NCBI GenBank assembly: GCA_015061805.1 | Contig: SUVV01000007.1 | Span: 1-64,000 of the forward strand | Reading direction: 5' to 3' | Source: Lentisphaerota bacterium | GTDB lineage: Bacteria; Verrucomicrobiota; Lentisphaeria; Victivallales; Victivallaceae | DNA: 64,000 bases | Part shown: positions 308-45,059 of the stretch, in pieces | Position numbering within the stretch: position 1 is the stretch's first letter | How the letters are laid out: the number at the start of each line of letters is the position of its first letter | Translations under genes and position numbers: made by a program | Notes under the pieces: generated by a model | Database searches by the model: none | Seen by the model: the letters and a program-made list of their open reading frames with translations, nothing else | Told to the model about the DNA's origin: nothing

Positions 308-575
308 CTGGCGCAAAACAAGCCGCCGGGAATCAGGAGCGATATCGCGCATCTTCGCCTGCCGGGCGGTCAAGCCCGGCGACTGGCGCAAAACAAGTCG
401 CCCGGATTCAGGAGCAATATCGCGCATCTTCGCCTGCCGGGCGGTCAAGCCCGGCGACTGGCGCAAAACAAGCCGCCGGGAATCAGGAGCGATATTGCGC
501 ATCTTCGCCTGCCGGGCGGTCAAGCCCGGCGACTGGCGGCAAGTCGCCCGGATTCAGGAGCAATATTGCAAAGCA
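308..575. repeat. 75-bp tandem hairpin repeat (H module), three full copies and part of a fourth
   Basis: Copies begin at 308, 383, 458 and 533 with an exact 75-bp period. Each contains the hairpin GCCGGGC-ggtcaa-GCCCGGC and the string GCCGCCGGGAATCAGGAGC or a variant. The fourth copy runs into the B element at 557. Related hairpin modules occur near 10.7-11.5, 23.7-23.9 and 44.9 kb. Open frames across this stretch on both strands are products of the repeat and have no family resemblance. Confidence 0.9.
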
Positions 576-674
576 GGGCGGGTTTTGCAAGTGAGAAGCG
601 AGGGAAGTGTACTTGAGTACTCGACCCGAGCGGCGAACGCTGCAAGGCGCGCTCCGGCGAAGCAAGATTGCTCC
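557..674 (+). repeat. B element copy 1 (long form, 118 bp)
   Basis: It runs from GGAGCAATATTGC to GCAAGATTGCTCC, so the ends are imperfectly complementary. The centre holds the hairpin GTAC-ttga-GTAC. It begins, read toward lower coordinates, 6 bp after an A8/T8 run that follows a copy of the tRNA-Thr 3' end. Other copies in this window lie at 10544, 10727, 10922, 11120, 11316, 23935 and 44941. Confidence 0.85.
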
Positions 675-680
675 GTGAAA

Positions 681-890
681 GCAAAAAAAATGGAGCCAAT
701 TATCGGAATCGACGAGGAGGGCGAAGCCCGACGAAGAGCCGGAGCAAAGCGACGGCAACCGACAACCAAGTGAGAATTGCGTATTGGCGGAAGCCAATGA
801 GCAAAGCGGTGATACATGACAAAAACAGCGGCAAAATTCATTTTGCAAGATGTTTTTGGAGTGTATCAAAGCAATTCTCACGGAATCCGG
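681..890 (-). repeat. 210-bp tandem unit C1 carrying a tRNA-Thr 3'-end copy
   Basis: The unit starts with an A8 run and a 22-bp exact copy (691-712) of the 3' end of the tRNA-Thr gene at 1112-1133, including CCA. The body 770-881 is bounded by GTGAGAATTGC and GCAATTCTCAC and holds several nested inverted repeats. It is nearly identical to C2, with a few substitutions and one indel. Confidence 0.9.
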
Positions 891-1101
891 GCAAAAAAAA
901 TGGAGCCAATTATCGGAATCGACGAGGAGGGCGAAGCCCGACGAAGAGCCGGAGCAAAGCGACGGCAACCGACAACCAAGTGAGAATTGCGTATTGGCGG
1001 CAGCCAATGAGCAAAGCGATGATACATGACAAAAACAGCGGCAAAATTCATTTTGCAAGATGTTTTTTGGAGTGTATCAAAGCAATTCTCACGGAATCCG
1101 G
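891..1101 (-). repeat. 211-bp tandem unit C2 carrying a tRNA-Thr 3'-end copy
   Basis: This is the second copy of the C unit, directly abutting the real tRNA-Thr gene. Its 22-bp tRNA 3'-end copy is at 901-922 and its structured body at 980-1092. Differences from C1 include the hairpin loop (GGCA instead of GGAA) and one extra T in a T-run. Confidence 0.9.
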
Positions 1102-1111
1102 ACAAAAAAAA

Positions 1112-1187
1112 TGGAGCCAATTATCGGAATCGAACCGATGACCTGCTCATTACGAGTGAGCTGCTCTACCGACTGAGCTAAATTGGC
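1112..1187 (-). tRNA. tRNA-Thr (anticodon CGT)
   Basis: A full cloverleaf can be drawn. The acceptor stem is GCCAATT/AATTGGC, the anticodon stem GCTCA/TGAGC with loop CTCGTAA, and the T arm ATCGG-TTCGATT-CCGAT. Discriminator T is followed by an encoded CCA and at once by a T7 run. It reads ACG codons. Its last 22 bases recur at 901-922 and 691-712, making the 3' end a likely integration or duplication hot spot. Confidence 0.97.
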
Positions 1188-1207
1188 ATTCCCAAGCATA
1201 TTGTTAA

Positions 1208-1236
1208 AATATAACCCCGAAAACGCCGGTTGTCAA
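1208..1236 (-). promoter_or_regulatory. promoter of tRNA-Thr(CGT)
   Basis: On the minus strand TTGACA (1236-1231) and TATATT (1213-1208) are separated by exactly 17 bp and end about 20 bp before the tRNA. Confidence 0.8.
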
Positions 1237-1266
1237 ATAATACGCTATAAAATTCTGCAAAAAGAG

Positions 1267-1295
1267 TTGTATTTATTGTTGACGTGTGATATTTT
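1267..1295 (+). promoter_or_regulatory. possible promoter of the double thioredoxin gene
   Basis: TTGTAT, 17 bp, TATTTT, ending 42 bp before the ATG at 1338. A weaker match than others in the window. Confidence 0.4.
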
Positions 1296-1337
1296 AACCG
1301 TGTGACACTTTTAACTGTACGCGCGGGAGGGAACGAG

Positions 1338-2381
1338 ATGAAAAGATTTATTTTTATTGCAGTGCTGTCGGCAATGGCTGTGCGGTGCTGCGGTGCGGCT
1401 CCGGATGGTTGGTTAAGTGATGTTTCCAAGGCTAAATCTTTTTCCCGGAGCCGAAATCTGCCGATAATTGTTTTATTCAGCGGGGGGGATTGGAGTGAAA
1501 GTTCGACAGAGTTTCTGACCAAACTGAAAAATGCTTCAGAGACAGCAGTTTTCATCCGGGAAAACTGCGTACCGTTGTATGTGGAAGTTGCGCCGGCATC
1601 CCGCTGGACCCGCGATTACCGCGCCCGGCTGCAGGCAGAATTTCCTTTCATAAAAGTTTCGGCGGGTATTCCGTTGCCGTCGATCTACTTTGTTGACAGA
1701 GAATTCCGCAATTTGAATGTACCGGAACCCAATTTCAGTCTTGGCGGATTCAAACGTTCGATCCGTCAGGCGCGAGCTGCACTTGCGGCGATGCCTGCCG
1801 AACCGCGCCCGGAAGAACCGGCGACACCGTCCGGCACAAAAACCGTTGTTCCGGAAAAAGTTACTGCTCTTTCCCAAACCGTAAACAGAAGCAGTTTCAG
1901 AAAAGAAGTCAAAGCCGACCGCCCGGATAACAAAAGCAAGACCAGATATTCCACATCCGAACAGATAAAGGAAGCCCAGCGCCAACGCAAATTGCCGCGC
2001 GACTACAAGGGAGAGCCGCCGCAGGGCTGGTTTACTGATCCGGACAAAGCCAGAGAATTTGCCGCCGCCCGCCGGTTACCGATAGTGATACTGTTTTCGG
2101 GGACGGATTGGTGCGGCCCGTGTAAAGCGCTTCACTCCAAAGTGTTGAAAAAGCGCGATGTACAGAAGATGATAACTTCCGAATGTGTAGGATTGTACGT
2201 AAATGTCAATCCCCGCCAATGGGAAAGCGTCCGGAAAAAATATCCATTCTGGAAAAGCAGAGGTGTTCCGAGCATGGTCATAACCGATTCAAAGTTCACT
2301 CCGCTCAAAAATGTTTCCGGGCGCACATTGTGGTCGTACAAAACATTGCGGCAAGCCATCCGCGAAACACATTCCATGTAA
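1338..2381 (+). CDS. exported protein with two thioredoxin-like domains, first one lacking CXXC
   Basis: 347 aa. The start at 1338 is chosen for the GGGAGGGAACGAG ribosome site; an in-frame upstream start at 1302 has none. Residues 1-21 look like a signal peptide ending CGAA, so the protein should act in the envelope. Two homologous thioredoxin-fold halves follow: one around residues 25-155 where the active site reads GGDWSESS, and one around 230-340 with GTDWCGPCK, a canonical CXXC, and a VPS cis-Pro region. A linker rich in basic and proline residues joins them. The second domain should reduce or isomerise disulfides; the first cannot do this and may bind a partner. The substrate is unknown. 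Confidence 0.85.
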   Translation: MKRFIFIAVLSAMAVRCCGAAPDGWLSDVSKAKSFSRSRNLPIIVLFSGGDWSESSTEFLTKLKNASETAVFIRENCVPLYVEVAPASRWTRDYRARLQAEFPFIKVSAGIPLPSIYFVDREFRNLNVPEPNFSLGGFKRSIRQARAALAAMPAEPRPEEPATPSGTKTVVPEKVTALSQTVNRSSFRKEVKADRPDNKSKTRYSTSEQIKEAQRQRKLPRDYKGEPPQGWFTDPDKAREFAAARRLPIVILFSGTDWCGPCKALHSKVLKKRDVQKMITSECVGLYVNVNPRQWESVRKKYPFWKSRGVPSMVITDSKFTPLKNVSGRTLWSYKTLRQAIRETHSM

Positions 2382-2424
2382 AAACAGGTCATTTCACATC
2401 AACATAAAAAAGAAAGGTTGTAAA

Positions 2425-2856
2425 ATGAAAAAATTTTATCTTTCCGCAGCGGCGGCAGCGGCAATTATCTTCACCGGCTGCACCACGGTCGAATCCACCC
2501 AGAAATTCAACCGCATGGGTCTGGGCACCCCCAATGAAAAGGCGGTCTGCCACACCTACGTTGAAATTCCCGGTTACTATCTTTTCGGAATTCCGATTTT
2601 TGTCGGCAGCACCAAGGGTGACGGCGAAGGCACGATGTTCCGCAACAACCTTACGGCGGAAAATGCGATCTACCTGCTGACCAAAGAAGCCAAGGCACGC
2701 AAAGCCGCCCGCGTGGTGAATGTCACAGTCAGCACCTCGGAAAGTTTCATCTTTTTCGGTATTCACAAGCGCACGATCCAGGCTTCCGGAACGGGTGTCC
2801 GCACCCGCGGTTCAGCGCTTGACCATGCAGCCAGAGAATATGACAACCAGCCCTGA
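2425..2856 (+). CDS. small lipoprotein of unknown function
   Basis: 143 aa. The ATG at 2425 follows AGAAAGG. The N-terminus has a basic pair, an alanine-rich hydrophobic stretch and the lipobox FTGC, so the mature protein should be a lipid-anchored envelope protein starting at Cys. The body (IPGYYLFGIPIFVGS, then an alanine-rich helix and a RVVNVTVS strand) has no motif that I recognise. It lies 43 bp after the double thioredoxin gene on the same strand and is followed by a clear terminator at 2873. Confidence 0.8.
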   Translation: MKKFYLSAAAAAAIIFTGCTTVESTQKFNRMGLGTPNEKAVCHTYVEIPGYYLFGIPIFVGSTKGDGEGTMFRNNLTAENAIYLLTKEAKARKAARVVNVTVSTSESFIFFGIHKRTIQASGTGVRTRGSALDHAAREYDNQP

Positions 2857-2872
2857 TGAAAAAACTTACGCA

Positions 2873-2900
2873 GGCGGCGGATTCCCCGCCGCCTTTTGTT
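2873..2900 (+). terminator. rho-independent terminator after the lipoprotein gene
   Basis: The stem GGCGGCGG/CCGCCGCC with loop attcc is followed by TTTTGTTTATTT. It lies 16 bp after the stop codon. Confidence 0.85.
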
Positions 2901-2926
2901 TATTTACCGGAAACAAAACACCTATC

Positions 2927-3568: not shown

Positions 3569-3593
3569 GTCCGGCGCGTTCCGCACTCTGCGG

Positions 3594-4670: not shown

Positions 4671-4678
4671 AATAAGTG

Positions 4679-10453: not shown

Positions 10454-10529
10454 GCGTTCGTAGCTCAGTCGGTAGAGCAAGTGACTCTTAATCACTGGGT
10501 CCACGGTTCGAGCCCGTGCGAACGCACCA
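10454..10529 (+). tRNA. tRNA-Lys (anticodon CTT)
   Basis: 76 nt. The acceptor stem is GCGTTCG/CGAACGC with discriminator A and encoded CCA, the anticodon stem AGTGA/TCACT with loop CTCTTAA, and the T arm CACGG-TTCGAGC-CCGTG. It reads AAG codons. A T8 run follows the CCA directly, then the first B element at 10544. Confidence 0.97.
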
Positions 10530-10543
10530 TTTTTTTTGTTCAC

Positions 10544-10662
10544 GGAGCAATCTTGCTTCGCAGGAGCGCGCCTTGCAGTCGTCGCCGCTCTGGTCACGTA
10601 CTCAAGTACGCTCCCATCGCGGACTCCTCGGCAAAACCCGCCCGGCTGTGCGATATCGCTCC
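10544..10662 (-). repeat. B element copy 2 (long form, 119 bp)
   Basis: It starts 14 bp after the tRNA-Lys CCA, just past an oligo-T run, and runs from GGAGCAATCTTGC to GCGATATCGCTCC. The central hairpin is CGTAC-tcaa-GTACG. Confidence 0.85.
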
Positions 10663-10726
10663 TGATTTACGGCGGCTTGTTTTGCGCCTGTCGCCGGGCT
10701 TGTCAGCCCGGCAGGCGAAGTTTGAT
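10663..10726. repeat. hairpin (H) module between B elements
   Basis: It contains the nested hairpin CGCCTG...GCCGGGCT-tgtc-AGCCCGGC...AGGCG and the reverse of the CAGGCGCAAAACAAGCCGCC string of the 75-bp repeat at 308-575. Confidence 0.75.
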
Positions 10727-11480
10727 GGAGCGCGCCTTGCAGTCGTCGCCGCTCTGGTCACGTACTCAAGTACGCTCCCATCGCGGACTCCTCGGCAAAA
10801 CACGCCCTGCTTTGCAATATTGCTCCTGAATCCAGGGTGACTTGCCGCCTGCGTTGGGCTGATGCCCAACAGGCGTAAGGCAGTTTTTATTGATAGCGCC
10901 GCCTGACGGCGGTTGATTACCGGAGCGCGCCTTGCAGTCGTCGCCGCTCTGGTCACGTACTCAAGTACGCTCCCATCGCGGACTCCTCGGCAAAACCCGC
11001 CCGGCTGTGCGATATCGCTCCGCATAATGTTTCTTGGAGCGGCGCCTGTCGTTGGGCTGATGCCCAACAGGCGTAAGGCAGTTTTTATTGATAGCGCCGC
11101 CTGACGGCGGTTGATTACTGGAGCGCGCCTTGCTGCGTTCGATCCTCCAGTCACATACGCAAGTATGCTCCTGTCGGCTCTCTCTTGCAAAACACGCCCT
11201 GCTTTGCAATATTGCTCCTGAATCCAGGGTGACTTGCCGCCTGTCGTTGGGCGGTTCGCCCAACAGGCGGAAGGCAGTTTTTATTGATAGTGCCGCCTGA
11301 CGGCGGTTGATTACCGGAGCGCGCCTTGCAGTCGTCGCCGCTCTGGTCACGTACTCAAGTACGCTCCCATCGCGGACTCCTCGGCAAAACACGCCCTGCT
11401 TTGCAATATTGCTCCTGAATCCAAGGTGACTTGCCGCCTGTCGTTGGGCGGTTCGCCCAACAGGCGGAAAGTAGTGTTGT
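10727..11480 (-). repeat. tandem array of four B+H composite units, ~196-bp period
   Basis: Short B elements (99-100 bp) start at 10727, 10922, 11120 and 11316. Each is followed by a hairpin module with stem GTTGGGC/GCCCAAC (or extended GTTGGGCG/CGCCCAAC) and, in the first three units, a second hairpin CCGCC-tgac-GGCGG. The third B copy is the most divergent and has the hairpin CATAC-gcaa-GTATG where the others have CGTAC-tcaa-GTACG. The long open frames here are repeat artefacts. Confidence 0.88.
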
Positions 11481-22416: not shown

Positions 22417-23139
22417 ATGAAAATTAAAGGAAAATGCGTTTTAATTACAGGTTCAGCCAAAAGATGCGGCGCAGAACTGGCAAAATCCTTTGCTTCCGAT
22501 GGAGCAGAGGTGATCATCCATTGCAACCGTTCAACCAGAGAGGCAGAGGAATTACTCGCAACTCTCCCCGGCAATGGGCATCGGATAATCGCCGCTGATT
22601 TCAGCAGCCCCGCCGGAGTTGCAGAGTTGATCTCCCAACTGGGGAGAGTTGATATTGTTATAAATAACGCTTCACTCTTTTTCCGCCCCGGCTCTCCGGA
22701 GGATTTGGCAGGAGCGGTACTCTATCATCAGGTGAATTTCCTCGCTCCGAAACAGATTCTTGAAGCATGGGCAAAACAGGATTTGCCGGAGGGGTGCGCC
22801 GTGAATATTCTCGATCAGGCAGTACTCAATCCCGGAACAGGCGGCTATTGGCAGTCACGCTATGATCTGATGCACTTGGGCAACTCCCTTGCCCGGACCC
22901 TTGGAGAACGCAATTTGCGGATAAATGCCGTCGCACCGGGTCCGTTATTGCCGCCTTACTGGAAGCCGGACTCCAAAATGGAAAAAACCCTGCCGACCCT
23001 GCCCTTGCACCGTCCGGTCGCAGTAGCAGACTTCGTCAATGCAGTAAAACTGCTTTGCACTTCAGATTCCATCACAGGCGCCATCCTGCCGGTCGACTGC
23101 GGCCAACACCTACTTTCTTTTCACGAGAAAAGAAAGTAG
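22417..23139 (+). CDS. SDR family oxidoreductase, pteridine-reductase-like
   Basis: 240 aa. The NAD(P) site TGSAKRCG (11-18) resembles PTR1/FolM proteins, followed by NNAS at 83-86. In place of the SDR Ser there is Asp133 (VNILDQA), also as in pteridine reductases, and the catalytic Tyr is probably Tyr149. The Lys expected four residues later is His153 (YDLMHLG). It may reduce dihydropteridines or have changed chemistry. The last residues, FHEKRK, and the stop codon are provided by the first unit of the repeat family that follows. Confidence 0.8.
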   Translation: MKIKGKCVLITGSAKRCGAELAKSFASDGAEVIIHCNRSTREAEELLATLPGNGHRIIAADFSSPAGVAELISQLGRVDIVINNASLFFRPGSPEDLAGAVLYHQVNFLAPKQILEAWAKQDLPEGCAVNILDQAVLNPGTGGYWQSRYDLMHLGNSLARTLGERNLRINAVAPGPLLPPYWKPDSKMEKTLPTLPLHRPVAVADFVNAVKLLCTSDSITGAILPVDCGQHLLSFHEKRK

Positions 23140-23140
23140 G
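23109..23140. repeat. 14-bp perfect inverted repeat over the SDR stop codon
   Basis: CCTACTTTCTTTTC-acga-GAAAAGAAAGTAGG. The right arm is the start of the first direct repeat at 23125 and contains the TAG stop. No T-run follows, so it is not a standard terminator. Confidence 0.85.
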
Positions 23141-23470
23141 CAAAGAAAAGCGGGTGTGTCGCGGCTCTCCGGTGTCGAGCCTTGATCGGAAATTCATATC
23201 CGCGAGAAAAGAAAGTAGGCAAAGAAAAGCGGGAGTGTCGCGGCTCTCCGGTGTCGAGCCTTGATCGGAATACACACCACATATCCGGGAAAAGAAAGTA
23301 GACAAAGAAAAGCGGGAGTGTCGCGGCTCTCCGGTGTCGAGCCTTGATCGGAATACGAGAAAAGAAAGTAGGCAAAGAAAAGCGGGTGTGTCGCGGCTCT
23401 CCGGTGTCGAGCCTTGATCGGAGTACGAGAAAAGATAGTAGGCTAAGATAAGCGATTATGTCGCGGGGTG
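23125..23470 (+). repeat. five-copy direct repeat, ~67-bp unit with variable spacers
   Basis: Copies start at 23125, 23204, 23288, 23357 and 23427. The unit begins GAGAAAAGAAAGTAGGCAAA and ends CGAGCCTTGATCGGA. Spacers of 2 to 18 bp differ between copies and the fifth copy is truncated and mutated. Not a CRISPR: unit too long and spacers too short and irregular. Not found elsewhere in the window. Confidence 0.88.
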
Positions 23471-23474: not shown

Positions 23475-23610
23475 CGCAAATGCGATTGCCCCAAATCGAG
23501 CAAACGATGCTCATGGGAAACTTTGGGAGATATTGAGAGGTCTTGGGAAACTTTGGGAGTAAAGTTGCTTGCTTTTTGCTAACAACGAGGACTCAGCAAA
23601 ACAGCCACTC
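23475..23610 (-). repeat. X repeat copy 2
   Basis: The reverse complement matches 11479-11645. It has the same phased decamers (TGGGAAACTT, TGGGAGATAT, TGAGAGGTCT and others) at 23514-23563. With copy 1 it forms a 12-kb-spaced inverted repeat. Confidence 0.8.
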
Positions 23611-23690
23611 ATCCGTACACATCCGTACACATCCGTACACATCCGTACCATTCCGTACTCATCCGTACTCATCCGTACTCATCCGTACAA
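23611..23690 (+). repeat. eight tandem 10-bp repeats (ATCCGTACNN)
   Basis: Eight decamers in exact 10-bp phase: ATCCGTACAC three times, then variants ending CA, TC and AA. Two reversed copies of the motif stand at the equivalent edge of the X repeat near 11480. Confidence 0.93.
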
Positions 23691-23934
23691 ACACTACCTC
23701 TCGCCTGCCGGGCGACAGCCCAACGATTGGCGACCCACAAGCCGCGCTGGAGGCGGATGGATCGTGCGGCAAGGTCGCCGGGAAGTCAAGGCAGCGGCGA
23801 AGGAGTGGACTTATGTCCTCGACTGAGCAGATGTCCGCCGACTTGCCAAGAGATTGCCCGCGAGCCGCCGCCTGGCGGAATCTCGCCTGTTGGGCGACAG
23901 CCCAACGATTGGCGCAACTCCAAGCCACGTCATG
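23691..23934. repeat. mosaic of degenerate H and B modules
   Basis: It contains two hairpin modules, one with mismatched arms GCCGGGC/GCCCAAC (near 23707) and one matched GTTGGGC/GCCCAAC (near 23888). A decayed B element around 23760-23850 keeps the central hairpin GGAC-ttat-GTCC. Confidence 0.6.
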
Positions 23935-24054
23935 GTGAGCGATATCGCACAGCCGGGCGAGTTTTGCAAGAGAGAGCCGACAGGAGCGTACTTGCGTACG
24001 TGACTGGAGGATCGAACGCCGCAAGGCTCGCTCCGGCAAAGCGAGATCGCTCAC
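23935..24054 (+). repeat. B element copy 7 (long form, 120 bp)
   Basis: It runs from GTGAGCGATATCGC to GCGAGATCGCTCAC; both ends differ from other copies but remain complementary. The central hairpin is GTAC-ttgc-GTAC. The stop codon of the 1107-aa pseudopilin-like gene lies inside its right end. Confidence 0.85.
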
Positions 24055-27000
24055 TCTAAATAGTCGATTCGGCGGACAGTCATACGCCCGGTGTTGATGT
24101 CGCGGTCAAGCGTGACGAACATCTTGACTTCACCGATGATCTCATCGTAGTAGATATTGTTGGTGCTGTCGTAGTCAAAAGTACCGAATTCGCATGTTCT
24201 GGAAACATTATTTCCAGCGGCATTCTTGCGGTGCTGAACACCACCGACATCGCGGATGGCTTGAGCAACGATGACCATTTGGATTTGCGAGGGAGTGGAT
24301 GGTTCAACATCGAGCAGATTGATGGTTTTGCCGATGACCTCTTCCTGAGCGGCATCATCGGCTCCATCGGAACCGGTAAAAGCATTACTCAAGTCATAAG
24401 CAGAACCATTGACATAATCAAGGAACTGCGCCCGGCTGGTCGCCTTGAAAGAGTTTCCGGATGGATGACGGGCTTGCACCATGCGATTGGCAATTTCTTC
24501 GGTTTGAGTCCATTCAATTATGCCGGGAGATACTGCTTCATCAGGATTAAATTGATCAGAGGCATTGCGTTTTGATCTGTCGTAAAACTCCTGCACTGAC
24601 TGACCGCGACGGATCCCGTTAAAAAGCACACGGGCAATTTCCGGATCATAAGTTGAGTCATATTCCGGGTGGTCATCGCGGAGTTTGTTGATATTGATTT
24701 TACCGTAAGTGGCACATTGTTCGGTCATTTTGATCTGGTCGAGGATTCCACCGTCACCACCAGCATAGGAGGTTCCGGCAAGTGTCCAGTTATTGTTATT
24801 GGGAGCATGGGCAGTCAACCGGACTGATTGACTGTTGTTGTCCGGATCGCAGGCATTTTTGATATTCAAGGTCTGCCAGCGGACGCCGCGATGGATAAGT
24901 CCGATCTCCCACGGGCTCATCATGGGAGCGTTGCGGATAAAAGCGGTGGAGAGGCGATATTGATTTCCGGTTTGAGTATTGCTCTCGCGCCAACCGGGTT
25001 CGGAAGCGACTTCGACATCCTGCTTGTCGCTCTCATGATTTGCCAGAAACTTATCGTTTTCGGCGGTATCACCGGCACCGGTATTGGCAATGCCGCCCCG
25101 GAATCCGGAGGTAACTTCAGTTCCCACGCACATGGCATTCTGCAAAGTATCATCGGCTGAAACATTCCGGATATCGGCAGATTTGGCAACCGTCACCACG
25201 GGAGACCAGTCTTCATCATAGAGATTCTGGCGGGGGTCATAGTTGCGGAGACTGAGATAAAAACCGGGCTTTTTTTCATCTTCGGGAGCATCCAACTTGA
25301 AAGCATCAGAACTTCCATCGGAAGTCCAAGTCCGGGGGGAAAGAGTACGGACATAATCCAAACCGGTAGAAGCACTGCCATTAATAGAGGCACTCAAATA
25401 TGCCCGTTTGACATTCAGGGTGACTTCGGTCATCTCTACAGCATCGATGGAGGTCAAGGTTACACTGTTGATCGTTGCGCCTTCCGGAAGTTCATTGCCG
25501 ATAGATTTAAGGATATCGGAAGTGATGTTAAAGGAAATTGCATCATTGGCAAAAGTCAATTGTTTGACCTCTTTATCGGGTTGAATGGAGTTTTCCGGAA
25601 CCAGAAGCGGATAGGGATTTTCTCCGTTGGTATTTCCCAACCGGGCAGACAAATCAGCATCGGCAATGGAGAGAGTCTGATCGGCGAAACTGTTATCCGC
25701 AACCGTTGCAGAAAGTTCATTAAAATTCATATCATAACCGGTTCCCTTGACCGCGACTTTAGAAGGAGTAATCGTAGTAATAACCGAATCTGTGGTAGTA
25801 TACTCAACTTTGAAACTCACCTTGCTCGGCTTGAATTTGACCGCGACTTCACCGAGAGTAACTCCGGCAGTAAAATTGGAAAATCCGGTGGGGTCAAAAT
25901 TGTAGACATTCGCCAGTTTGACAATCGGAGCAACTCCGATATAACTGGTTCCGACCCGGGTCGAATAGGTCGAACCGCTCGCCGTTGCCGCACCGTCAAC
26001 CACCGCAACGCCGCTCTTGGCAGCATCAGCTGCCGGATAGAATCCCATACGGAAACCGAGTTCATAAAGATAAGGAGTCTTTTCGTTACCGGTGAAATTA
26101 GGATGTTCATTTCCGGTCAAGGTCATCCAAGTCGTTGCCGGCTTGTCTGAGGTGGGAACACTGTCGGCATCGCAGTAGTCGTTGAAGTTGGCGGCGATCT
26201 GCCGACGCCACGCGCCGCGGTTCACAGTACCGCCGGAAGAATCCCGATAAGTGGGATTATCAGTAGAAACATTACCGATCCGGCGCAGGAAAGGCAGACT
26301 GGGACGATCGTCAGCGCTCAAATCAAAATCATATTCGTCACCGCTTTGGAATTCAGCACCGTCATTGGCCAATTTATTAAGGAAATTTGCGTTATTGATC
26401 GAATTGGCATTGCTGCTGTTGAGACCGAAACGGAGATACCACGGGTCAGAAGAGGTGTTTGCTCCGGAAGCATATTTGGTAATATCCGTTGGCTCAGATG
26501 AAACTTCCGAGATATTAAAACGCAAGACCTGAATCTTTTTACCATTGGCACTCTCCTGATAGTAATAGGTTTCCGGAATGATCGGAGTCGGATTCAGAAC
26601 ATCGCTGCCCTCTGCGATATCCGGGCACAACCATTTATCAATAAAGCGCTTTTTCGCAGCATCGGTGTCCTGAAACCCGAGAGTATTGTAAATGATTTCG
26701 TAATCTTGCAAGGTAGAAGTTGGCGTAACTGCAGTTACCGCCGGACTGAAAACACTTCCGCTTGTTGGCAGGTAAATTTCATCGATCTCCCTGCCCCACC
26801 GGTTTTTGCGGGGAGTCCAGGAATAAAAACCGTCAGTTTGCAAGTGTCCACTCAAAAATACCGGAGCCAGAATCTGCGGAGAGTTGGACAAAACCTGCCA
26901 TGCGGCACGACCGATGATCTGACGGTCGGAACTATTCATGGTATTGTCATAAAAATTGACCCATTGTCCCTGCCACCGGGAATTAAGAAAGAGATTATTG

Positions 27001-27374
27001 AACTCTTTGGCAAGCGTTTTAGCGACTACAGTATCATCCATGGGCAGATTCATCAATGACTTTGCTGAAGCGGTCGTCTGCAAACCATCATCCAGACCGC
27101 CGCTTCCGGCACAGGAGTAAATGTTGGCAAAACTTTCCGGGAAACTGGTATTTGCCTTGTAATACTGGTATTGATATACCATAACCGAAGCCATTGCCCG
27201 GCTCAAAGCACTCTGGGCAAACATCCGCGCCTGACTCCGGGCGCTGTTGTTGGCGGCGACCTTTTGGGCGGTAAGGGCATTGGCGACAAACGCCATACCG
27301 GTCACCAGCAGAATCGTGAGCATACCCAAAGCAAAGAGCAGCGCCACACCACGTTGTTCTCGTTTATTCATCAT
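24051..27374 (-). CDS. large GspK/PilX-like minor pseudopilin or secretion protein
   Basis: 1107 aa, much larger than typical GspK (~300 aa). The N-terminus REQRGVALLFALGMLTILLVTGMAF has the GspK-type hydrophobic helix (start ATG-ATG behind GGAGA, overlapping the stop of the previous gene). The C-terminal third contains ATYGKININKL, AVSPGIIEWTQ and a VNLLD-like region, in keeping with a GspK SAM-like domain. The middle is a large extracytoplasmic insertion. It is the last gene of the GspH/I/J/K-like operon and is expected at a pseudopilus tip. Its stop codon falls in a B element. Confidence 0.75.
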   Translation of the reverse strand: MMNKREQRGVALLFALGMLTILLVTGMAFVANALTAQKVAANNSARSQARMFAQSALSRAMASVMVYQYQYYKANTSFPESFANIYSCAGSGGLDDGLQTTASAKSLMNLPMDDTVVAKTLAKEFNNLFLNSRWQGQWVNFYDNTMNSSDRQIIGRAAWQVLSNSPQILAPVFLSGHLQTDGFYSWTPRKNRWGREIDEIYLPTSGSVFSPAVTAVTPTSTLQDYEIIYNTLGFQDTDAAKKRFIDKWLCPDIAEGSDVLNPTPIIPETYYYQESANGKKIQVLRFNISEVSSEPTDITKYASGANTSSDPWYLRFGLNSSNANSINNANFLNKLANDGAEFQSGDEYDFDLSADDRPSLPFLRRIGNVSTDNPTYRDSSGGTVNRGAWRRQIAANFNDYCDADSVPTSDKPATTWMTLTGNEHPNFTGNEKTPYLYELGFRMGFYPAADAAKSGVAVVDGAATASGSTYSTRVGTSYIGVAPIVKLANVYNFDPTGFSNFTAGVTLGEVAVKFKPSKVSFKVEYTTTDSVITTITPSKVAVKGTGYDMNFNELSATVADNSFADQTLSIADADLSARLGNTNGENPYPLLVPENSIQPDKEVKQLTFANDAISFNITSDILKSIGNELPEGATINSVTLTSIDAVEMTEVTLNVKRAYLSASINGSASTGLDYVRTLSPRTWTSDGSSDAFKLDAPEDEKKPGFYLSLRNYDPRQNLYDEDWSPVVTVAKSADIRNVSADDTLQNAMCVGTEVTSGFRGGIANTGAGDTAENDKFLANHESDKQDVEVASEPGWRESNTQTGNQYRLSTAFIRNAPMMSPWEIGLIHRGVRWQTLNIKNACDPDNNSQSVRLTAHAPNNNNWTLAGTSYAGGDGGILDQIKMTEQCATYGKININKLRDDHPEYDSTYDPEIARVLFNGIRRGQSVQEFYDRSKRNASDQFNPDEAVSPGIIEWTQTEEIANRMVQARHPSGNSFKATSRAQFLDYVNGSAYDLSNAFTGSDGADDAAQEEVIGKTINLLDVEPSTPSQIQMVIVAQAIRDVGGVQHRKNAAGNNVSRTCEFGTFDYDSTNNIYYDEIIGEVKMFVTLDRDINTGRMTVRRIDYLE

Positions 27375-29709: not shown

Positions 29710-29785
<76 letters not shown>

Positions 29786-29837: not shown

Positions 29838-29906
29838 GGTGGAAAACAGTTTTTTTGTCACTTTTTATTAAAAAAGCAGAAAAATCAATAATAAAGGGGA
29901 TTTTTT

Positions 29907-30206
29907 GCAAATAACGTGATTTGCTGACTGGAACTTTGCGATGGGAGATTTTGGGAGTTTTGAGATGTTTTGGGAGAGCGTTAAATTACGCGCCACGATC
30001 CCGTTGCGGGCTGTTGGAGCAAAGCGGTTTGAGAGATTGCAAATAACGTGATTTGCTGACTGGAACTTTGCGATGGGAGATTTTGGGAGTTTTGAGATGT
30101 TTTGGGAGAGCGTTAAATTACGCGCCACGATCCCGTTGCGGGCTGTTGGAGCAAAGCGGTTTGAGAGATTGCAAATAACGTGATTTGCTGACTGGAACTT
30201 TGGAGA
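29907..30206 (+). repeat. 132-bp tandem repeat, 2.3 copies
   Basis: Copies start at 29907, 30039 and 30171 with no visible difference between the two full units. Each contains phased TTTTGGGAG-type decamers like those in the X repeats. The short frame running through it is repeat-derived. Confidence 0.93.
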
Positions 30207-34043: not shown

Positions 34044-35873
34044 ATGAGCGATACACCGGTAAACAACAATTATGGCGCAGATGCCATTATGACCTTGTCG
34101 CCGCTGGAGCATATCCGGCTGCGGCCCGGTATGTATATCGGCAGACTCGGCAACGGTTCGCATCAGGACGACGGCATCTATGTACTGCTCAAAGAGATCA
34201 TCGACAACTCCATCGACGAATTCATCATGGGGTGCGGCAAAAAGATCGAAATCACCGTCGATGTGGAATCCGGTAAAGTTTCCGTCCGCGACTACGGCCG
34301 GGGTATTCCGCTTGCAAAACTGATCGACTGTGTTTCCATGATCAATACCGGCGGCAAATATAACAGCGATGCCTTCCAGTATTCGATCGGCATGAACGGC
34401 GTCGGCACCAAAGCGACCAACGCGCTCTCAAGTTTTTTCAAGGCGCGCAGCGTGCGGGACGGCGAATTCAAAGAAGCGGTATTCTCCCGGGGCGAACTGG
34501 TTTCGGAGTGCTCCGGAAACTGCGAAGAGCGCAACGGCACTTACATCGAATTCATCCCCGACAACGAAAAATTCCCCGACTACAAATTCCGGATGGAATA
34601 TGTGGAAAAACGGATCTGGATGTACGCCTATCTGAATGTCGGACTCTCTCTCCATCTCAACGGCGAAAGATACTATTCAGCCAAGGGGCTTGCCGATCTG
34701 CTCGAAACTGAAACCGGAGAAGAAAGACTTTACGATATCATCTATTTCCGCAGTAAACAACTGGAATTCGCCCTGACCCACAATGACAATTACGAAACCA
34801 GTTACTCCTTTGTCAACGGTCAGTACACCAGCGACGGCGGAACTCATTTGTCCGCATTCAAAGAGGGTGTCCTCAAGGGTATAAACGAATATTCCGGCAA
34901 AAGTTTCAAAGCTGATGCCATCCGCGACGGCATGATCGGCGCCATAGCCGTAAAAGTCAAAGAGCCGGTCTTCGAATCCCAGACCAAAAACAAACTCGGC
35001 AACACCGATGTCCGCGGCCCGATCGTTGCCGCCGTCAGCGCAGCGGTCGCCGACTATTTGCACAAACACAAGGAGATTGCGGAGATCGTCATCGATAAGG
35101 TCGTCCGCAACGAGCAGTTCCACAAGCAGACTCAGGAATCCAAGAAAAAATTCCGCGAAACTGCCCAGAAGACCCGGCTGCGTATTCCAAAACTCAAAGA
35201 CTGCAAATTCCACGTCGGCGACAAGTGGCCGCGCAAGGTCGAACCCAAAGAAACGATGATCTTTCTCACCGAGGGTGATTCTGCGGCAGGTTCGCTGGAG
35301 AAAAAACGCGATGTGGACAATCAGGCGATTTTCGCTCTGCGGGGCAAACCCAAAAACGCTTTCGGCGAAACGATCGAAATGATCTATAAAAATGAGGAAC
35401 TCACCTTTCTCATGCAGGCGCTCGGAGTGGAGGATTCCACCGAAAATCTGCGCTATGACAAGATCATCCTCGCCACCGATGCTGACGTGGATGGTCTGCA
35501 CATCCGCAATCTGCTGTTGACCTTTTTCCTCTCCTTTTTCAACGAACTGGTACTTTCCGGACACCTCTACGTCCTCGAAACGCCGCTGTTCCGGGTCAAA
35601 AAGGGCAAGGATATCATCTACTGCTACAATGAAACCGAACGGGACAAGGCCGCCGCCGAACTCGGCAAATGCGAAATTACCCGCTTCAAAGGTCTCGGCG
35701 AAATTTCTCCGGATGACTTCGGCGAATTCATCGGCGAAAATATGCGCCTTTCACCGGTGACACTCGACAATATGCACGGGGTGCACGATGTGTTGAAATT
35801 CTACATGGGTGACAACACCCCGGAACGCAAAGAATACATCATGAACAATTTGGAGGTCGTGGATTATGAGTGA
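34044..35873 (+). CDS. parE: DNA topoisomerase IV/gyrase subunit B
   Basis: 609 aa. The GHKL ATPase has IIDNSIDEF and GRGIPL, with the G-loop [14 protein letters not shown]. The TOPRIM domain has [10 protein letters not shown] and the metal-binding [13 protein letters not shown]. At ~610 aa it lacks the insert of long GyrB proteins and fits ParE-like subunits. With the next gene it relaxes or decatenates DNA. It overlaps the A subunit gene by 8 bp. Confidence 0.9.
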
Positions 35874-38526
35874 CGGATTTGATCCCCAGATTGAGAATCC
35901 CGTTGAGATCCCGGATGAGGAAAACGATTCCGCCGTCCTCGCCAAGCAGAAGCAGGGTACCAACGATTACTTCCGCAAGATGATCGACCGGAACTTCCTC
36001 GACTATGCCAGTTACGTTATCGGTTCCCGCGCCATTCCCGATGTGGATGACGGACTCAAACCGGTTCAGCGCCGTATTCTCTGGGCGCTCTACAAGGTCT
36101 ACGACGGACGCACCCAGAAGGTCGCCAATATCGTAGGCAACACCATGCACTATCACCCCCACGGCGACGCTTCCATTGGAGATGCGCTGGTAGTCCTTGC
36201 CAACAAGGGCGGCATAATCGAAAACCGTTACCGCGACCGCAAGACCGGACAGGAAAAAACTGAATTCCTGAACATCCCCTACTTCATCATGAAGCAGGGA
36301 AACTTCGGCAATATCCTCACCGGCAGCCCCGCCGCCGCCGGACGTTACACCGAGTGCGGATTGACCAAACTCGCGTATGAAACGATGTTCAATAACGACA
36401 TCACCCCCTTCGTCCCCAACTATGACGGACGCGAAGAAGAACCGGTGGTGCTTCCGGCAAAAGTTCCCAGTTTGCTCATGCTCGGCAGTGACGGTATCGC
36501 CGTCGGTATGTCGACCTGCGTACTGCCGCACAACTTCAACGAACTTATCGATGCTGAAATCGCGGTCCTTGAGGGCAGACCGTTTGAACTTTTCCCCGAC
36601 TTCCAGCAGGGAGCGCTGATGGATGTCCGCGAATATGATGACGGAAACGGCAGGATCATCCTCCGCGCCAAAATCGATATCGAAGGACGCGACCTCATCA
36701 TCCGGGAAATCCCCGCCACTTGCACTTCCGAATCGCTGGTCGCCTCCATCGAACGCGCCGCCGAAAAGAATAAGATCCGTATCTCCAGCGTGGATGACTT
36801 CACCACCGACCATGTGGAGATCCGGGTCACCCCCACCCGCGGCTACACCCCCGAACAGACTATGCAGGGGTTGTACATGTATACTGATTGTTCGATTTCC
36901 ATATCTTCGCGCATCGTGGTCATCTGCGACCGTAAACCGGTGCAGATGAGCGTGAGTGAAGTGCTGAAACGCAACGTTGAAAAACTGGTCGGCTTCCTCA
37001 AACAGGAATTGGAGATCGATCTCAACAAACAGAATGAACTCCACCATGCCAAAACCCTCGCCCAGATCTTCTTTGAAAACCGTATCTACAAGAAGATCGA
37101 AGAGTGCCGCAGCCAGGAGGAGGAATATCAGGAAGTCCACGCCGGATTGAAACCTTTCCGGCATCTGCTGCTCCGCGACGTGACCAATGAAGATATCGAC
37201 AAACTCCTTGCTCTCCCGGTGCGCCGCATCGCCCGTTTCGACATTGAGAAAAACCAGCAGGAACTCCGGGAAATCGAAGACAGGATCAAAAAGATTTTGC
37301 ACAAGCTTTCGCATCTTATCGCTTATACGATCGATGTCCTCACTGACATAAAGAAAAAATACGGTGCCAACTTCCCCCGCCGCACCGAAATCGAAAATAT
37401 CGAACAGATCGACCGCAAATCTGCCGCACTCAACAATATCAAAGTCGGCTGGGATCGCAAAAACGGTTATGTCGGTACCGGCATCAAGAGCGATGATACC
37501 ATCATGTGCAACGAATATGACCGTCTGGTCTGCATCGAAAAGAGCGGTAAGTACAAGGTTATCCCGATGGTGCCGGACAAACTTTTCATCGGTAAATTAT
37601 ATGACTTCCGCAAATATGATTCGGAAACCCAGTTCGGGGTGATCTACAAGGAGACCAAGACCGGAAAATATTACGGCAAACGTTCCAGTATCGGCGGATT
37701 TATTTTGGATAAGGAGTACACCCTCTGTCCGGCAGGATGCAAACTCGAAATGCTCACGCCCCGCGCCGATGCGATCTATTCGTGGCACGAGGAGGATGCC
37801 AGAGGCAAAACCACCGTCCGGGAAATCAATCTTATGGAACTGCCGGTGCGCGCCCCCAAAGCGCGCGGCGTGCTGATCAGCAGTAAAAATCTGCTCAAGG
37901 TCGTCCATTCCCGTTACCTCACTCCCGAAGAGATAGCCGCACTGGTCGTCCCCGATGATCCGGAAGTTGAAGAAAACACCGACACCGCCGGAATCGAAGA
38001 GGTGAGTGAACCCATTCCCGCTCCGGAAGAGAACAAAACGGAAAAAATCCCGCTTCCCTCCGGCATCACCGCCATCGTTGCCGCCGCCAAAGAAGCGGCA
38101 AAGAGTGTCCGCGCCACCCGGCAGGAATCGCCCCTCCCAGCCCCGGTTGCAGAAGAATCCCCGGTTGTGGAAGAATCCCCGGTTGCAGAAGAATCCCCGG
38201 TTGCAGAAGAATCCCCGGTTGCGGAAGAATCCCCGGTTGTGGAAGAATCCCCGGTTGCAGAAGAATCCCCGGTTGTGGAAGAATCCCCGGTTGTGGAAGA
38301 ATCCCCGGTTGTGGAAGAATCCCCGGTTGTGGAAGAATCCCCGGTTGTGGAAGAATCCCCGGTCGTGGAAGCTGCTCCGGCGATGGAAGAAAAAGAGGCG
38401 CTGGAACTTTCCGGCGACCCGGAACCGGTCAAACCCCGCAAAAAATCATCCGTTCCCCCGGCAGCCAAACCGGCGCTCACTCCGGAAGAAGACCTCGGCA
38501 TCGTCCAACCTGAATTCGGATTCTGA
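35866..38526 (+). CDS. parC: DNA topoisomerase IV/gyrase subunit A with repetitive acidic tail
   Basis: 886 aa. The breakage-reunion domain begins near residue 40 ([23 protein letters not shown]) and the active-site Tyr is in [11 protein letters not shown] coiled arm ([18 protein letters not shown]) and a reduced C-terminal beta-propeller part ([16 protein letters not shown]) follow; no GyrA box is seen, which supports ParC. After ~700 comes a linker and then twelve repeats of [12 protein letters not shown] (residues ~763-834) and a KPRKKSS basic end. The tail is unusual and probably disordered. Confidence 0.9.
38152..38367 (+). repeat. twelve 18-bp coding repeats in parC
   Basis: The unit GAAGAATCCCCGGTTGTG (or GCG/GCA at the end) encodes EESPVV or EESPVA. 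Copies are nearly identical at the DNA level, so the array is recent and likely length-variable. Open frames on the other strand come from it. Confidence 0.95.
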
Positions 38527-38531
38527 CCCCG

Positions 38532-40768: not shown

Positions 40769-40784
40769 GCGGCAATATGCAGAT

Positions 40785-40820
40785 AAAATTCGCGCCTGCC
40801 GGAAATTCCGGCAGGCGCGA
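40785..40820. terminator. shared hairpin between convergent genes
   Basis: A 15-bp perfect stem TCGCGCCTGCCGGAA/TTCCGGCAGGCGCGA. A short T-run follows on the minus strand only, so it best ends the antiporter gene. Confidence 0.65.
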
Positions 40821-40826
40821 TCGGCA

Positions 40827-42236: not shown

Positions 42237-42255
42237 AATTCAATCTCCTTAAAAA

Positions 42256-44598
42256 TCACTTTTTGATACACAATGTCCGGAAAACCGTCCGGTTTTCACG
42301 CTGTTCTCTGGTAATTCCGTGGATATCGCCTTCGTACCCCGGGAAGACATTTTCAAACTCTTCACGGGCAAGCAGATAATCCGCAATGGCACTGGCATCT
42401 CCGGAAACCTTTTCGCCGCCCATCATCACCGGGATCCCCGGCGGATAGGGAACCAGCATGACCGCCGCGATCCGGTTGTGCATTTCAGCGACATCGACCA
42501 GTTCCACATCGCCGCGCACCACCATCGCCGCCGCATCGACCGGAAGCATCGCCGGAGTCGGAATGACTTCAAACGCCCGGTGCATCAATTCCAGCATCCG
42601 GTGTTCCCGCAGATAACTGTGCATGGAATCGCAATGATAACGGAGGTTTTCGCCTTTGTAGCGTTCCGGATATTTATCCACCAATTCCGGGAAGACCGCT
42701 TCCAGCGGAGTTTCGGCATCGTAGAGTTTTTTGAATTCAAAGAGCGCCGCCAGAAGCGAACCCTGCTTGGCGCGGGTCGTACCCAGAGAATTCAACAGCA
42801 GAAATGAGTAGTAATCGGTCTTTTCGCAGACGATATTGTGACGGATCAGGAAGTTGCTGACGATCGCCGCCGGTATACCGCCGCGCGAAGTGAGTTTGCC
42901 CTCATTGTCGATTCCCGGAGTGAGAATGGTGAGTTTGATCGGGTCAAGCATCACATAATCATCTTCGATATCATCAAAGCCGTGCCAGTTGTCCTTGGAA
43001 TTCATCACCCACGGCGCCTGATTTTCCGCCAGATATTCGGTCGGACAATCGGCAAAATTCAGCAAGGTACCGTTGTACCTTACCGTATGCGGCTGCCACA
43101 TGCTGAAAAACCAATCGCCGTCACGGTGCATTTCCCGTTCCAGATCAGCCATTTTTCGCCGCAGTTGGACGGCTTCGCGGATGATGTCGCCGATGATCGT
43201 TTTACCGTTATCCTCCATCATCCGGGTAGCCACATCCAGCGAAGCGATCATGCTGTACTGCGGAGAGGTCGAACCGTGCATCATGTAGGATTCGTTGAAG
43301 AGCAGCGGGTCGATCTTCCGCCGCGCACCGTTGCGGATATGAAGCATCGATGCCTGTGAAAACGCCGTCAGCAGTTTGTGGGTGGAGTGGGAACAGAATA
43401 CCGGCTGGGGACAATCTGCCGCTGTCATACCGTAATGACCGGAATAGACCGGATGGAAATGAGCATAGGCATACCATGCTTCGTCAAAGTGGAGATTTTC
43501 GATCATTCCCGCTTCGGCGAACCATGCTTCATCCAGCCCGCTCCGGGCGGTGACACTTGCGCTCTGGGCGAAAATCGCACCGGTATTGTAGCAGACACCA
43601 TCATAGGTGGAGTTGGTGAGTGCGCTCATTTTGATATGTTTCCGGCGGTCTTTATCTTTTATCAGCGGATGCGCCGCGATCCGCTTCTTGATCGATGCCG
43701 CGGAAAATTCCGACAGCCTGACCGGGCCGATAATACCGCGGGCGTTGCGCCGGGGAATCATATACACCGGAACCGCACCGGTTATCACCATTGCATAATT
43801 GAGCGATTTGTGACAGTTGCGGTCAACCAGAGCCAAATCTCCGGGAAGCACCTGACTGCGCCAGATGATCTGATTGACGGTGCTGGTACCGTTGAGGACA
43901 TAGTAGGTCTGGTCGGCACCGAAGACTCTGGCGGAGTTGGCTTCGGCATCGCCTGCGGCGCCTTCGTGATCCAGCAGCGACCCCAGTTCGGGTACGGAGA
44001 TGGAAAGGTCACTGCGGAAGGTGTTTTCTCCGAAAAATTTGAACATCGCAACTCCCGCCGGAGCCCGGAGAAACCCCTGACCGCCGAGGTGTCCCGGCGT
44101 ATGCCAGGCATACTTGTACTGTTCAGAATAATCCACCAGTTTGCTGAAAAATTCCGGCAAAACATCTTCGGAATAACGTTTCACCCAGTTGGCGATGCGT
44201 CCGGCGATGAATTCAACCGTATCAGCGGTTTTCCAGAGACAATCGCTGATCTTGTCCAGAATACATCCGGAAAGATTTTCTGTTTCCAGATGGTCGGTCA
44301 GCAAAATCACCGGAACTTTATCCGAACGGAGCCGGATGCGTGCCAGCAGGATCTCCGGAGCCATGGCTTCACCTGCGGACTCGAATTCCAAGTCCCAATC
44401 AATCACCACACAGCCGATATCGGCGCGGCTGGTGAAGATCTCCAGAGCATCTTCATAGGTCAATGCGGTGATAACACTGCACCCGGCGGTGGTTTTCAAC
44501 TCCTCCAGCAGTTCGCGCAACCGGTGCCCTTCATTGTCCGATGCCGCGAACTCACCGGAAACGACAAGTACCGGCCAATCAGCAAGAGTCATTTTCAT
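42256..44598 (-). CDS. Orn/Lys/Arg decarboxylase, probable biodegradative arginine decarboxylase
   Basis: 780 aa from the ATG at 44598 behind GAGGAGG; a longer upstream frame has no ribosome site. Residues 10-140 form a receiver-like wing domain, followed by the fold-type I PLP domain. The PLP lysine is in HSTHK (Lys408), and DEAWYAYAHFHPVYSGHYGM fits the cofactor Asp region. Size and motifs match the AdiA/LdcI group. Together with the antiporter it forms a pH-homeostasis operon. The 5' leader of ~120 nt has two alternative hairpins. Confidence 0.9.
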   Translation of the reverse strand: MKMTLADWPVLVVSGEFAASDNEGHRLRELLEELKTTAGCSVITALTYEDALEIFTSRADIGCVVIDWDLEFESAGEAMAPEILLARIRLRSDKVPVILLTDHLETENLSGCILDKISDCLWKTADTVEFIAGRIANWVKRYSEDVLPEFFSKLVDYSEQYKYAWHTPGHLGGQGFLRAPAGVAMFKFFGENTFRSDLSISVPELGSLLDHEGAAGDAEANSARVFGADQTYYVLNGTSTVNQIIWRSQVLPGDLALVDRNCHKSLNYAMVITGAVPVYMIPRRNARGIIGPVRLSEFSAASIKKRIAAHPLIKDKDRRKHIKMSALTNSTYDGVCYNTGAIFAQSASVTARSGLDEAWFAEAGMIENLHFDEAWYAYAHFHPVYSGHYGMTAADCPQPVFCSHSTHKLLTAFSQASMLHIRNGARRKIDPLLFNESYMMHGSTSPQYSMIASLDVATRMMEDNGKTIIGDIIREAVQLRRKMADLEREMHRDGDWFFSMWQPHTVRYNGTLLNFADCPTEYLAENQAPWVMNSKDNWHGFDDIEDDYVMLDPIKLTILTPGIDNEGKLTSRGGIPAAIVSNFLIRHNIVCEKTDYYSFLLLNSLGTTRAKQGSLLAALFEFKKLYDAETPLEAVFPELVDKYPERYKGENLRYHCDSMHSYLREHRMLELMHRAFEVIPTPAMLPVDAAAMVVRGDVELVDVAEMHNRIAAVMLVPYPPGIPVMMGGEKVSGDASAIADYLLAREEFENVFPGYEGDIHGITREQRENRTVFRTLCIKK

Positions 44599-44640
44599 AA
44601 CTTGCTCCTCCTCAAAATCATGGATCTTCCACGCCGTTTT

Positions 44641-44690
44641 CTGCCGGGGCGGACCATTCTCCGCCCGACATGCGGCAGAAAAACTGCCGG
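44641..44690 (-). promoter_or_regulatory. structured 5' leader of the decarboxylase operon
   Basis: CGGCAG at 44673-44678 can pair with CTGCCG at 44684-44689 or with CTGCCG at 44641-44646; the latter encloses the hairpin GGGCGG-accattct-CCGCCC. The two foldings exclude each other, as in attenuators. Confidence 0.4.
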
Positions 44691-44727
44691 CACAGAAACA
44701 AAATCCATTCCTCCTCTTCACCACATC

Positions 44728-44755
44728 AATATAATGTAATCAGAGAAGATTCCAA
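44728..44755 (-). promoter_or_regulatory. promoter of the decarboxylase operon
   Basis: On the minus strand TTGGAA (44755-44750), 16 bp, TATATT (44733-44728). Confidence 0.65.
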
Positions 44756-44760
44756 GAGGG

Positions 44761-44940
44761 GGAGATGATTTGCAGTATCCCCACCACGAGCAATTGGAGC
44801 AGCGCGGGCTTGAGGTTTGCACACAGCGTGGGCTTGTGCGCAAGCCATAAGCCGCGGAGCGGCACTACCATCAAACACTACCTCTCGCCTGCCGGGCTAT
44901 TCAGCCCGGCGACAGGCGCAAAGCCAGCCGCCCGGAATCA
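44761..44940. repeat. H-type hairpin module with flanking sequence
   Basis: It contains GGCTTG-tgcg-CAAGCC, the string CAAACACTACCTCTCGCCTG (also next to the decamers at 23690) and the hairpin GCCGGGCT-attc-AGCCCGGC. The last bases lead into the B element at 44941. No gene seen. Confidence 0.7.
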
Positions 44941-45059
44941 GGAGCGATATCGCACAGCCGGGCGCGTTTTGCCGAGGAGCCCGCGAGGGGAGTGGACTTG
45001 TGTCCTCGACCCGAGCGGCGACGACCGCAAGGCGCGCTCCGGCAAAGCGAGATCGCTCC
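44941..45059 (+). repeat. B element copy 8 (long form, 119 bp)
   Basis: From GGAGCGATATCGC to GCGAGATCGCTCC, with central hairpin GGAC-ttgt-GTCC. On the minus strand it begins 6 bp after the T-run of the PFOR terminator. Confidence 0.85.

Follow-up and report, generated by a model that had tools for sequence, protein, structure and literature searches.

An imperfect palindrome recurs within the 64,000-nucleotide stretch of DNA analysed here (the window: positions 1 to 64,000 of contig SUVV01000007.1 of a Lentisphaerota bacterium, whose genome, G000, comprises 2.29 Mb in 34 contigs), and its copies differ by changes that are paired across the stem. What is this element, which we call B, and why does it lie where it does? 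Our answer is that B is probably a small interspersed palindrome resembling ERIC and YPAL, which sits where transcription units end and is probably non-autonomous.

Copies, extent and build of element B

When complete, B is an imperfect palindrome of 118-121 bp that runs from CGGAGC to GCTCC. An earlier note on this DNA had described a repeated core of 100-120 bp in at least eight copies; the repeat is real and all eight copies are present in the window, while its extent has to be corrected to that just given. Each copy scores 80-90 bits with a covariance model (R1) that was built from Lentisphaerae copies only and partly from the window copies themselves. Across the source genome, one B unit has 47 BLAST matches (E<=10), 28 of which cover at least 96 of 110 nt. 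The features of the window are as follows, with the span of the R1 match given for each B copy.

307-538: three 75-bp H1-type hairpin units, beyond the B copy at 556..675
556..675, minus strand: complete B, preceded by repeated tRNA-Thr 3' ends and then a T8 run; R1 575-654(-)
10543..10662, plus strand: complete B, 13 nt past tRNA-Lys (10454-10529), preceded by TTTTTTTTGTTCA; R1 10564-10644(+)
10663..11478, plus strand: array copies 2-5, with hairpins H1 (GCGCCTGTCG..CAGGCG) and small H2 (CCGCCTGACGGCGG) between and after them
10727..10826, plus strand: array copy 2, a B unit that lacks the left outer arm; R1 10728-10808(+)
10922..11021, plus strand: B unit, array copy 3; R1 10923-11003(+)
11120..11218, plus strand: B unit, array copy 4, ATAC/GTAT variant; R1 11121-11200(+)
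11316..11415, plus strand: B unit, array copy 5; R1 11317-11397(+)
23778..23848, minus strand: second family, with GGCAAGTC arms and a B-type apex; R1 31.8 bits
23935..24054, minus strand: B with GTGAGC/GCTCAC outer arms, the arm containing the TGA stop of ORF 24051-27374(-); R1 23954-24033(-)
44941..45060, minus strand: B, GGAC/GTCC variant; a hairpin and a T8 run lie between it and the pyruvate:ferredoxin oxidoreductase (PFOR) gene 45129-48668(-); R1 44959-45039(-)

Five B units, separated by the REP-like hairpin H1 and the small hairpin H2, make up the array at 10.5 kb; the left outer arm is present in the first unit and missing in copies 2-5. The right ends of B arrays are variable, and by eye we recognised no target-site duplication of B. 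H1 (GCGCCTGTCG..GGCAGGCG, often then AGGTAGTG, with a GTAG motif on one side) occurs at window 307-566 and 10663-11478 and behind most B copies examined, and looks like a separate REP-type family. At two other loci of the source genome (L030 and L037, contig C19) the B copies are internally rearranged, with a GCGTGATATCGCTCC end attached to the left outer arm.

The window also carries tandem repeats of other kinds. A 210-bp unit (2.2 copies, 681-1133) repeats the 3' end of the tRNA-Thr gene 1112-1187(-), and the B copy at 556-675 comes after its last copy. Two identical 132-bp units and a remnant lie at 29905-30202, near tRNA-Thr (29710-29785); a 70-83 bp repeat in about four copies at 23124-23466 is followed by eight copies of the decamer CATCCGTACA at 23610-23689; and an 18-bp repeat (12.8 copies, 38141-38371) falls within an 886-aa ORF, 35866-38526(+).

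The copies have in common an apex, GTC(A/G)(C/A), four nucleotides, a loop, four nucleotides and (G/A)CTCC, paired as a stem. Read on the complementary strand, it comprises a stem, a GAG/UGA internal loop (with pairs G.A, A.G, then G.U or G.C), a further stem of 4-5 pairs and a short loop. The central hairpins listed earlier, GTAC/GTAC, GGAC/GTCC (at 44941) and ATAC/GTAT (at 11120), were all found again, as was the GTGAGC/GCTCAC arm at 23935. Within the genus, this one apex is carried by several arm families, among them B, a family inside a MITE of the genome G018, and the family at 23.8 kb, whose member in the window had been mistaken for a decayed copy of B.

The G018 MITE is about 300 bp long, with ends CACAGACATCTCATAAAA / TTTTATGGGACAGCTGTG and an ERIC-like palindrome inside (L106, L107, L109, L137, L142, L144, L146, L156). 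It has terminal inverted repeats and, by eye, 9-bp target duplications in L137, L142, L144, L146 and L156. A reading in which the G018 copies are ERIC-like insertions, each bounded by terminal inverted repeats of its own, was abandoned: the inverted repeats and the 9-bp duplication belong to the larger, palindrome-carrying MITE. For B itself, neither terminal inverted repeats nor a fixed target duplication of that kind was seen.

Position at the ends of genes

The position of B was assessed from 36 distinct left ends, collected by one motif in four genomes (21 in G000, 12 in G018, 2 in G003 and 1 in G008); the copy at 23935, with its GTGAGC arm, falls outside this set. In 31 of the 36, the left end abuts an in-frame stop codon or a terminator-like T-run. 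Specifically, an in-frame stop closing at least 100 open codons ends 0-6 nt before CGGAGC in 16, and a T-run preceded by a hairpin is found in 15, some of them behind tRNA genes. The five copies with neither lie, by eye, at two tRNA 3' ends and two T-rich stretches, with one nested in another element. The same rule holds for 5.9% of random positions, 7.2% of positions outside long open frames and 7 of 25 MITE left ends.

Measured from the apex and over all families fetched, a stop lies 40-59 nt off on the GTCAC side in 24 of 91 Lentisphaerae copies and on the other side in 4 of 91 (null 3.3%). In Bacteroidales, it lies 30-59 nt before GTCAC in 46 of 68 copies and on the other side in 6 of 68 (null 4.8%). 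The apex distance was adopted after a weaker result from fold-derived borders, which for Bacteroidales placed a stop at the left in 20 of 67 copies and at the right in 9 of 67 (null 8.7%), the borders taken from MFE folds being over-extended. Several Bacteroidales copies begin TAA-AAAA and end in a T-run, resembling by eye a two-way terminator. GTCAC is mostly on the coding strand in both groups. This orientation rule is not general, because enterobacterial ERIC adjoins stops in both orientations: 15 loci were fetched and the apex was recognised by script in 12, with a stop 51-59 nt away on the GTCAC side in 4, a stop 55-67 nt away on the GGAGC side in 5 (two of these being one gene on different plasmids) and none in range in 3.

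Related genomes bear on gain and loss at such sites. Four B sites of G000 also carry B at the orthologous site in G018. At the tRNA-Lys site, the two species differ by a double change, GTAC/GTAC versus ATAC/GTAT. Behind the PFOR gene, G000 has B and G018 has no B motif within 513 nt. The gene that precedes B at L030 in G000 is followed in G002, soon after its stop codon, by a member of another apex family. Behind the gene that precedes B at L005, G119 carries a truncated arm resembling that of B, together with a copy of B type that lies on the other strand. From these few cases, the comparison suggests that gene ends are preferred sites.

Such positions lead to the strongest rival of a mobile element, namely a function at the 3' end, which may hold as well. 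On this account B does not move, or has ceased to, and serves the 3' end of the transcript upstream, as a terminator, an mRNA-end stabiliser or a ribosome-coupled decay signal that is selected at the stop and copied between loci by recombination. The abutment of left ends on stops or T-runs would follow from it, as would the four sites common to two species and the preferred distance and orientation of the Bacteroidales copies, often with flanking A- and T-runs. In Yersinia, ERIC is reported to alter mRNA stability in one orientation, destabilising the message (PMC2229807). However, in 15 of the 36 copies a terminator-like T-run precedes the element, in some of them after a tRNA gene, so that the upstream transcript would be expected to stop before reaching it; the best-folding strand is antisense to the gene; and enterobacterial copies adjoin stops in both orientations. 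The copies behind T-runs and tRNA genes do not fit a plain terminator, and we rejected that version. As a whole, we consider the 3'-end account somewhat unlikely as the primary explanation, and retain a small interspersed element as the preferred one.

Relatives in Enterobacteria and Bacteroidales

The earlier note had recognised neither ERIC nor a known non-coding RNA in the repeat. The second half of that statement stands: a search of the window at Rfam gathering scores, which the note had called for, returned three tRNAs only and no RNA family for B. The first half needs qualifying, as the apex of B, GTCAC-nTAC-loop-GTAn-GCTCC, is presumably that of ERIC. R1 gives 28.3 bits (E 2.5e-4) to an E. 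coli locus (L224) and 27.5 bits to a Pantoea locus (L225), both of which we take to be ERIC, and 38.1 bits to a Bacteroidales locus (L147); in a 50-kb stretch of K-12 that lacks an apex match, R1 had no match up to E 5. Of 5426 E. coli genomes, 5375 match a 56-nt sequence taken as the ERIC centre and 5376 match the repeat of contig L105. Judged by the apex common to both, B appears not to be unrelated to ERIC.

Four Bacteroidales MAGs contain 17, 39, 26 and 21 R1 matches (E<=0.5). A pattern scan of public genome contigs returned 54 stretches, 47 from MAGs named Lentisphaerae or Lentisphaeria and 7 of Bacteroidales type (L108, L122, L129, L143, L145, L147, L149); the pattern was the apex plus GCCTTGC, so a common arm piece was built into the query. 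The same kind of scan in IMG/VR gave nine contigs, several of them ERIC-like in look. In a sample of the class, R1 has matches in 26 of 158 genomes (E<=0.01): 14 of the 24 sampled from the same genus (counting G000 itself), a further 7 from the family and, with weak scores, 5 from a second family. With up to 29 candidates scored per genome in this survey, copy numbers of 28-29 are lower bounds. Of 240 genomes of the phylum, 4 contain the exact apex pattern, every one a member of this genus, and none contains the reversed pattern. Among the matches listed by a literature search for ERIC-like repeats in Bacteroidetes and Lentisphaerae, all appear by title and abstract to be unrelated.

One potential explanation for this likeness is convergence of short palindromes at gene ends. 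The arms do differ among B, ERIC and the Bacteroidales repeats, leaving a common apex of only about 22 nt, and several relatives were retrieved by a pattern for that very apex; for these the apex match is not independent, whereas copy numbers, arms, strand bias and positions are. Against convergence stand the absence of the reversed pattern from the 240 genomes and the agreement of three phyla in model scores, in the asymmetry of the strands and in having a stop some 50 nt away. We regard convergence as improbable; the common structured centre instead hints at one old family of small interspersed elements.

Asymmetry of the two strands

Stem-loop families include ERIC and YPAL, and the structures of such families, ERIC among them, are described as predictable on both strands (PMC2267715). 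B too folds on both strands, with the GGAGC strand (GGAGC..GTGAC) folding better. Its stem mismatches on that strand are G.U (143) and G.A (189), with 7 A.C and 3 C.T in the reverse sense; on the coding strand the same positions read A.C (143) and C.T (189). These strand-biased mismatches are largely invariant (columns 8, 9 and 33-35), and in variable columns only, the bias is 89 to 3 for G.A/C.T and just 12 to 5 for G.U/A.C.

The GGAGC strand has the lower MFE in 190 of 195 copies overall (107/110 Lentisphaerae, 73/75 Bacteroidales, 7/7 enterobacterial and 3/3 from other viral contigs), with a mean advantage of 11-13 kcal/mol. The bias extends beyond the apex: when the latter was swapped for an identical neutral hairpin on both strands, the arms alone still favoured the GGAGC strand in 104 of 110 Lentisphaerae, 60 of 75 Bacteroidales (1 equal), 14 of 14 enterobacterial and 3 of 3 other copies.

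Copies of B could also be independent non-coding RNAs transcribed from the GGAGC strand. The covariation described below would suit such RNAs, as would the near confinement of G.U and G.A pairs to that strand and the RNA MFE of the one copy tested, which 0 of 200 dinucleotide shuffles reached (z -6.3). Nevertheless, no Rfam family matches, transcription in this direction would enter the adjoining gene from its 3' end, tandem and mosaic arrangements are more usual for repeats, and in all three elements folded with DNA parameters the bias keeps its sign. We give this possibility little credence.

Compensatory change

The paired change claimed at the outset was confirmed on an alignment (A1) of 51 sequences and 1071 stem cells. 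Paired cells make up 86.2% versus 71.8% in shuffles, cells changed on both sides number 149 versus 51.8, and the covariation score is 0.314 versus 0.105 (at most 0.128 with slid partners); 0 of 500 shuffles reached the observed value of any of the three. Pairs with a double change are in slight excess (12 versus 10.3; 25 of 500 shuffles reach 12), and the number of pair types is not above shuffles (28 versus 28.7). Counted on a tree, there are 31 double changes from one Watson-Crick pair to another, where permuted partners give a mean of 2.0 and a maximum of 11; a tree built without the 3' sides yields 35 (control mean 2.0, maximum 12).

The picture is less clear pair by pair. The earlier note had held that covariation no greater than expected would tell against its claim, and in our own R-scape-like null over all column pairs only 36/50 passes E<0.05, with an exchange, C-G to A.A, that makes no base pair. 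Nine other stem pairs have E of 0.07-1.5; counting the 26 stem pairs alone would bring these nine below 0.05, by a scaling that is our own.

Template switching that corrects palindromes could yield double changes without selection, and compensatory changes of purely mutational origin, with arms perfected in this way and spread by gene conversion, would agree with the single column pair that passes and with pair-keeping changes that are nearly all Watson-Crick to Watson-Crick, G.U steps on the gene strand being scarce; yet such correction would erase mismatches and would not preserve strand-biased ones, which are kept at CC/AA (columns 8-9/75-76) in 51/51, at 33/53 in 51/51 and at 34/52 in 49/51 sequences, and this origin seems to us quite improbable.

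Search for a mobilising enzyme

We know of no enzyme that mobilises ERIC, and none of the four families searched (Y1, IS110, IS630 and reverse transcriptase) tracks the elements. Y1 (PF01797) was found in 11 of 34 genomes of the genus and not in G018, G003, G015 or G002; the sole Y1-like match of the source genome (G000:C29:20906-21220) has three internal stop codons. Y1/RAYT was rejected as the mobiliser on this absence from several B-rich genomes. IS110 (PF01548) was found in 5 of the 34, three of them rich in the element; it is present in G018, G003 and G119 and was not found in G000, G008, G015, G016 or G002. IS630 (PF13358) was found in 0 of the 34, and both families were set aside, as their distribution does not follow that of the elements. 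A retro-element, considered for the sharp left and variable right ends of B, was dropped: RVT_1 was found in 2 of 6 genomes and not in G000, G003, G008 or G010, the G018 match being just over the cut-off and the strong one lying in G006, which has no R1 match.

A model for element B

The best explanation, which we hold tentatively and at slightly less than even confidence, is that B is an ERIC/YPAL-type non-coding element, non-autonomous, that spreads via its folded GGAGC single strand and is sited at the ends of transcription units. We rank a single-strand-folded element first on the ground that the strand asymmetry is a property of the element rather than of the gene, given that ERIC has the same bias while its orientation to genes varies; from this asymmetry we infer transposition. 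In this model, non-autonomous B would spread, or would once have spread, through a single-stranded GGAGC strand folded as a hairpin, either as ssDNA (as in integron attC and REP/TnpA systems) or as RNA. The common apex would be recognised by a putative factor, and B would attach to transcription units at their ends, or be retained there. In place, it could act as a 3'-end structure, a role drawn from the two-way-terminator-like A- and T-runs that flank Bacteroidales copies and from the reported effect of Yersinia ERIC on mRNA decay.

A wider version is conceivable and more doubtful: ERIC, B and the Bacteroidales repeats might belong to a single, ancient superfamily of mobile elements that fold as single strands and attach themselves exactly at the 3' ends of transcription units, via a possibly host-encoded machine that recognises the 22-nt apical hairpin.

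Comparison with known systems

The integron attC site is an imperfect palindrome behind a stop codon, and its folded strand is the bottom (antisense) strand. B resembles attC in these respects, and differs in that no cassette arrays were noticed with B. REP/BIME and REPIN with RAYT (Y1) share with B the mosaic arrays and the gene-end positions, and REP termini can supply stop codons (PMC3733652). Unlike these, B is much longer, and no Y1 gene was found in several B-rich genomes.

The next comparison is with YPAL/RU-2 of Yersinia and Erwinia. By its published description, YPAL is palindromic and without TA termini, as B is, with variable duplications and with targets spanning or next to dyad symmetry (PMC2229807). 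An insertion beside dyad symmetry is matched by the 15 of 36 B left ends behind a terminator-like hairpin and T-run. In contrast, YPAL is 168 bp long and has reported target duplications of 3-26 bp, and none were recognised for B.

The last comparison is with ERIC/IRU/RU-1 of enterobacteria and Vibrio. Like B, these are single long imperfect palindromes, of 120-127 bp; ERIC, at the loci that we take to be such, also has the same apex and GAG/TGA internal loop, folds better on the GGAGC strand and is sited at stop codons. ERIC measures 127 bp and has TA ends (PMC2229807), and a 2024 review presents it as a MITE of Enterobacteriaceae and Vibrionaceae (PMC10969869). In Erwinia, RU-1 is described as added to two genes at their 3' ends, and one of the two seems to have lost its normal stop codon (PMC2759123). 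B differs in having no TA ends or TA duplication (its ends are CGGAGC..GCTCC and its left flanks TTCA, GACA, AACA and others), in arms that on inspection are unlike those of ERIC (R1 scores of 27-28 bits for L224 and L225 versus 80-90 for the window copies), in its mostly single orientation to the gene, and in occurring in another phylum, in tandem mosaics with H1 and H2 hairpins. An apex, strand bias and gene-end position that recur in two more phyla would open ERIC to comparison: factors common to E. coli, these Lentisphaerae and these Bacteroidales would become candidates, with E. coli K-12 as a usable model.
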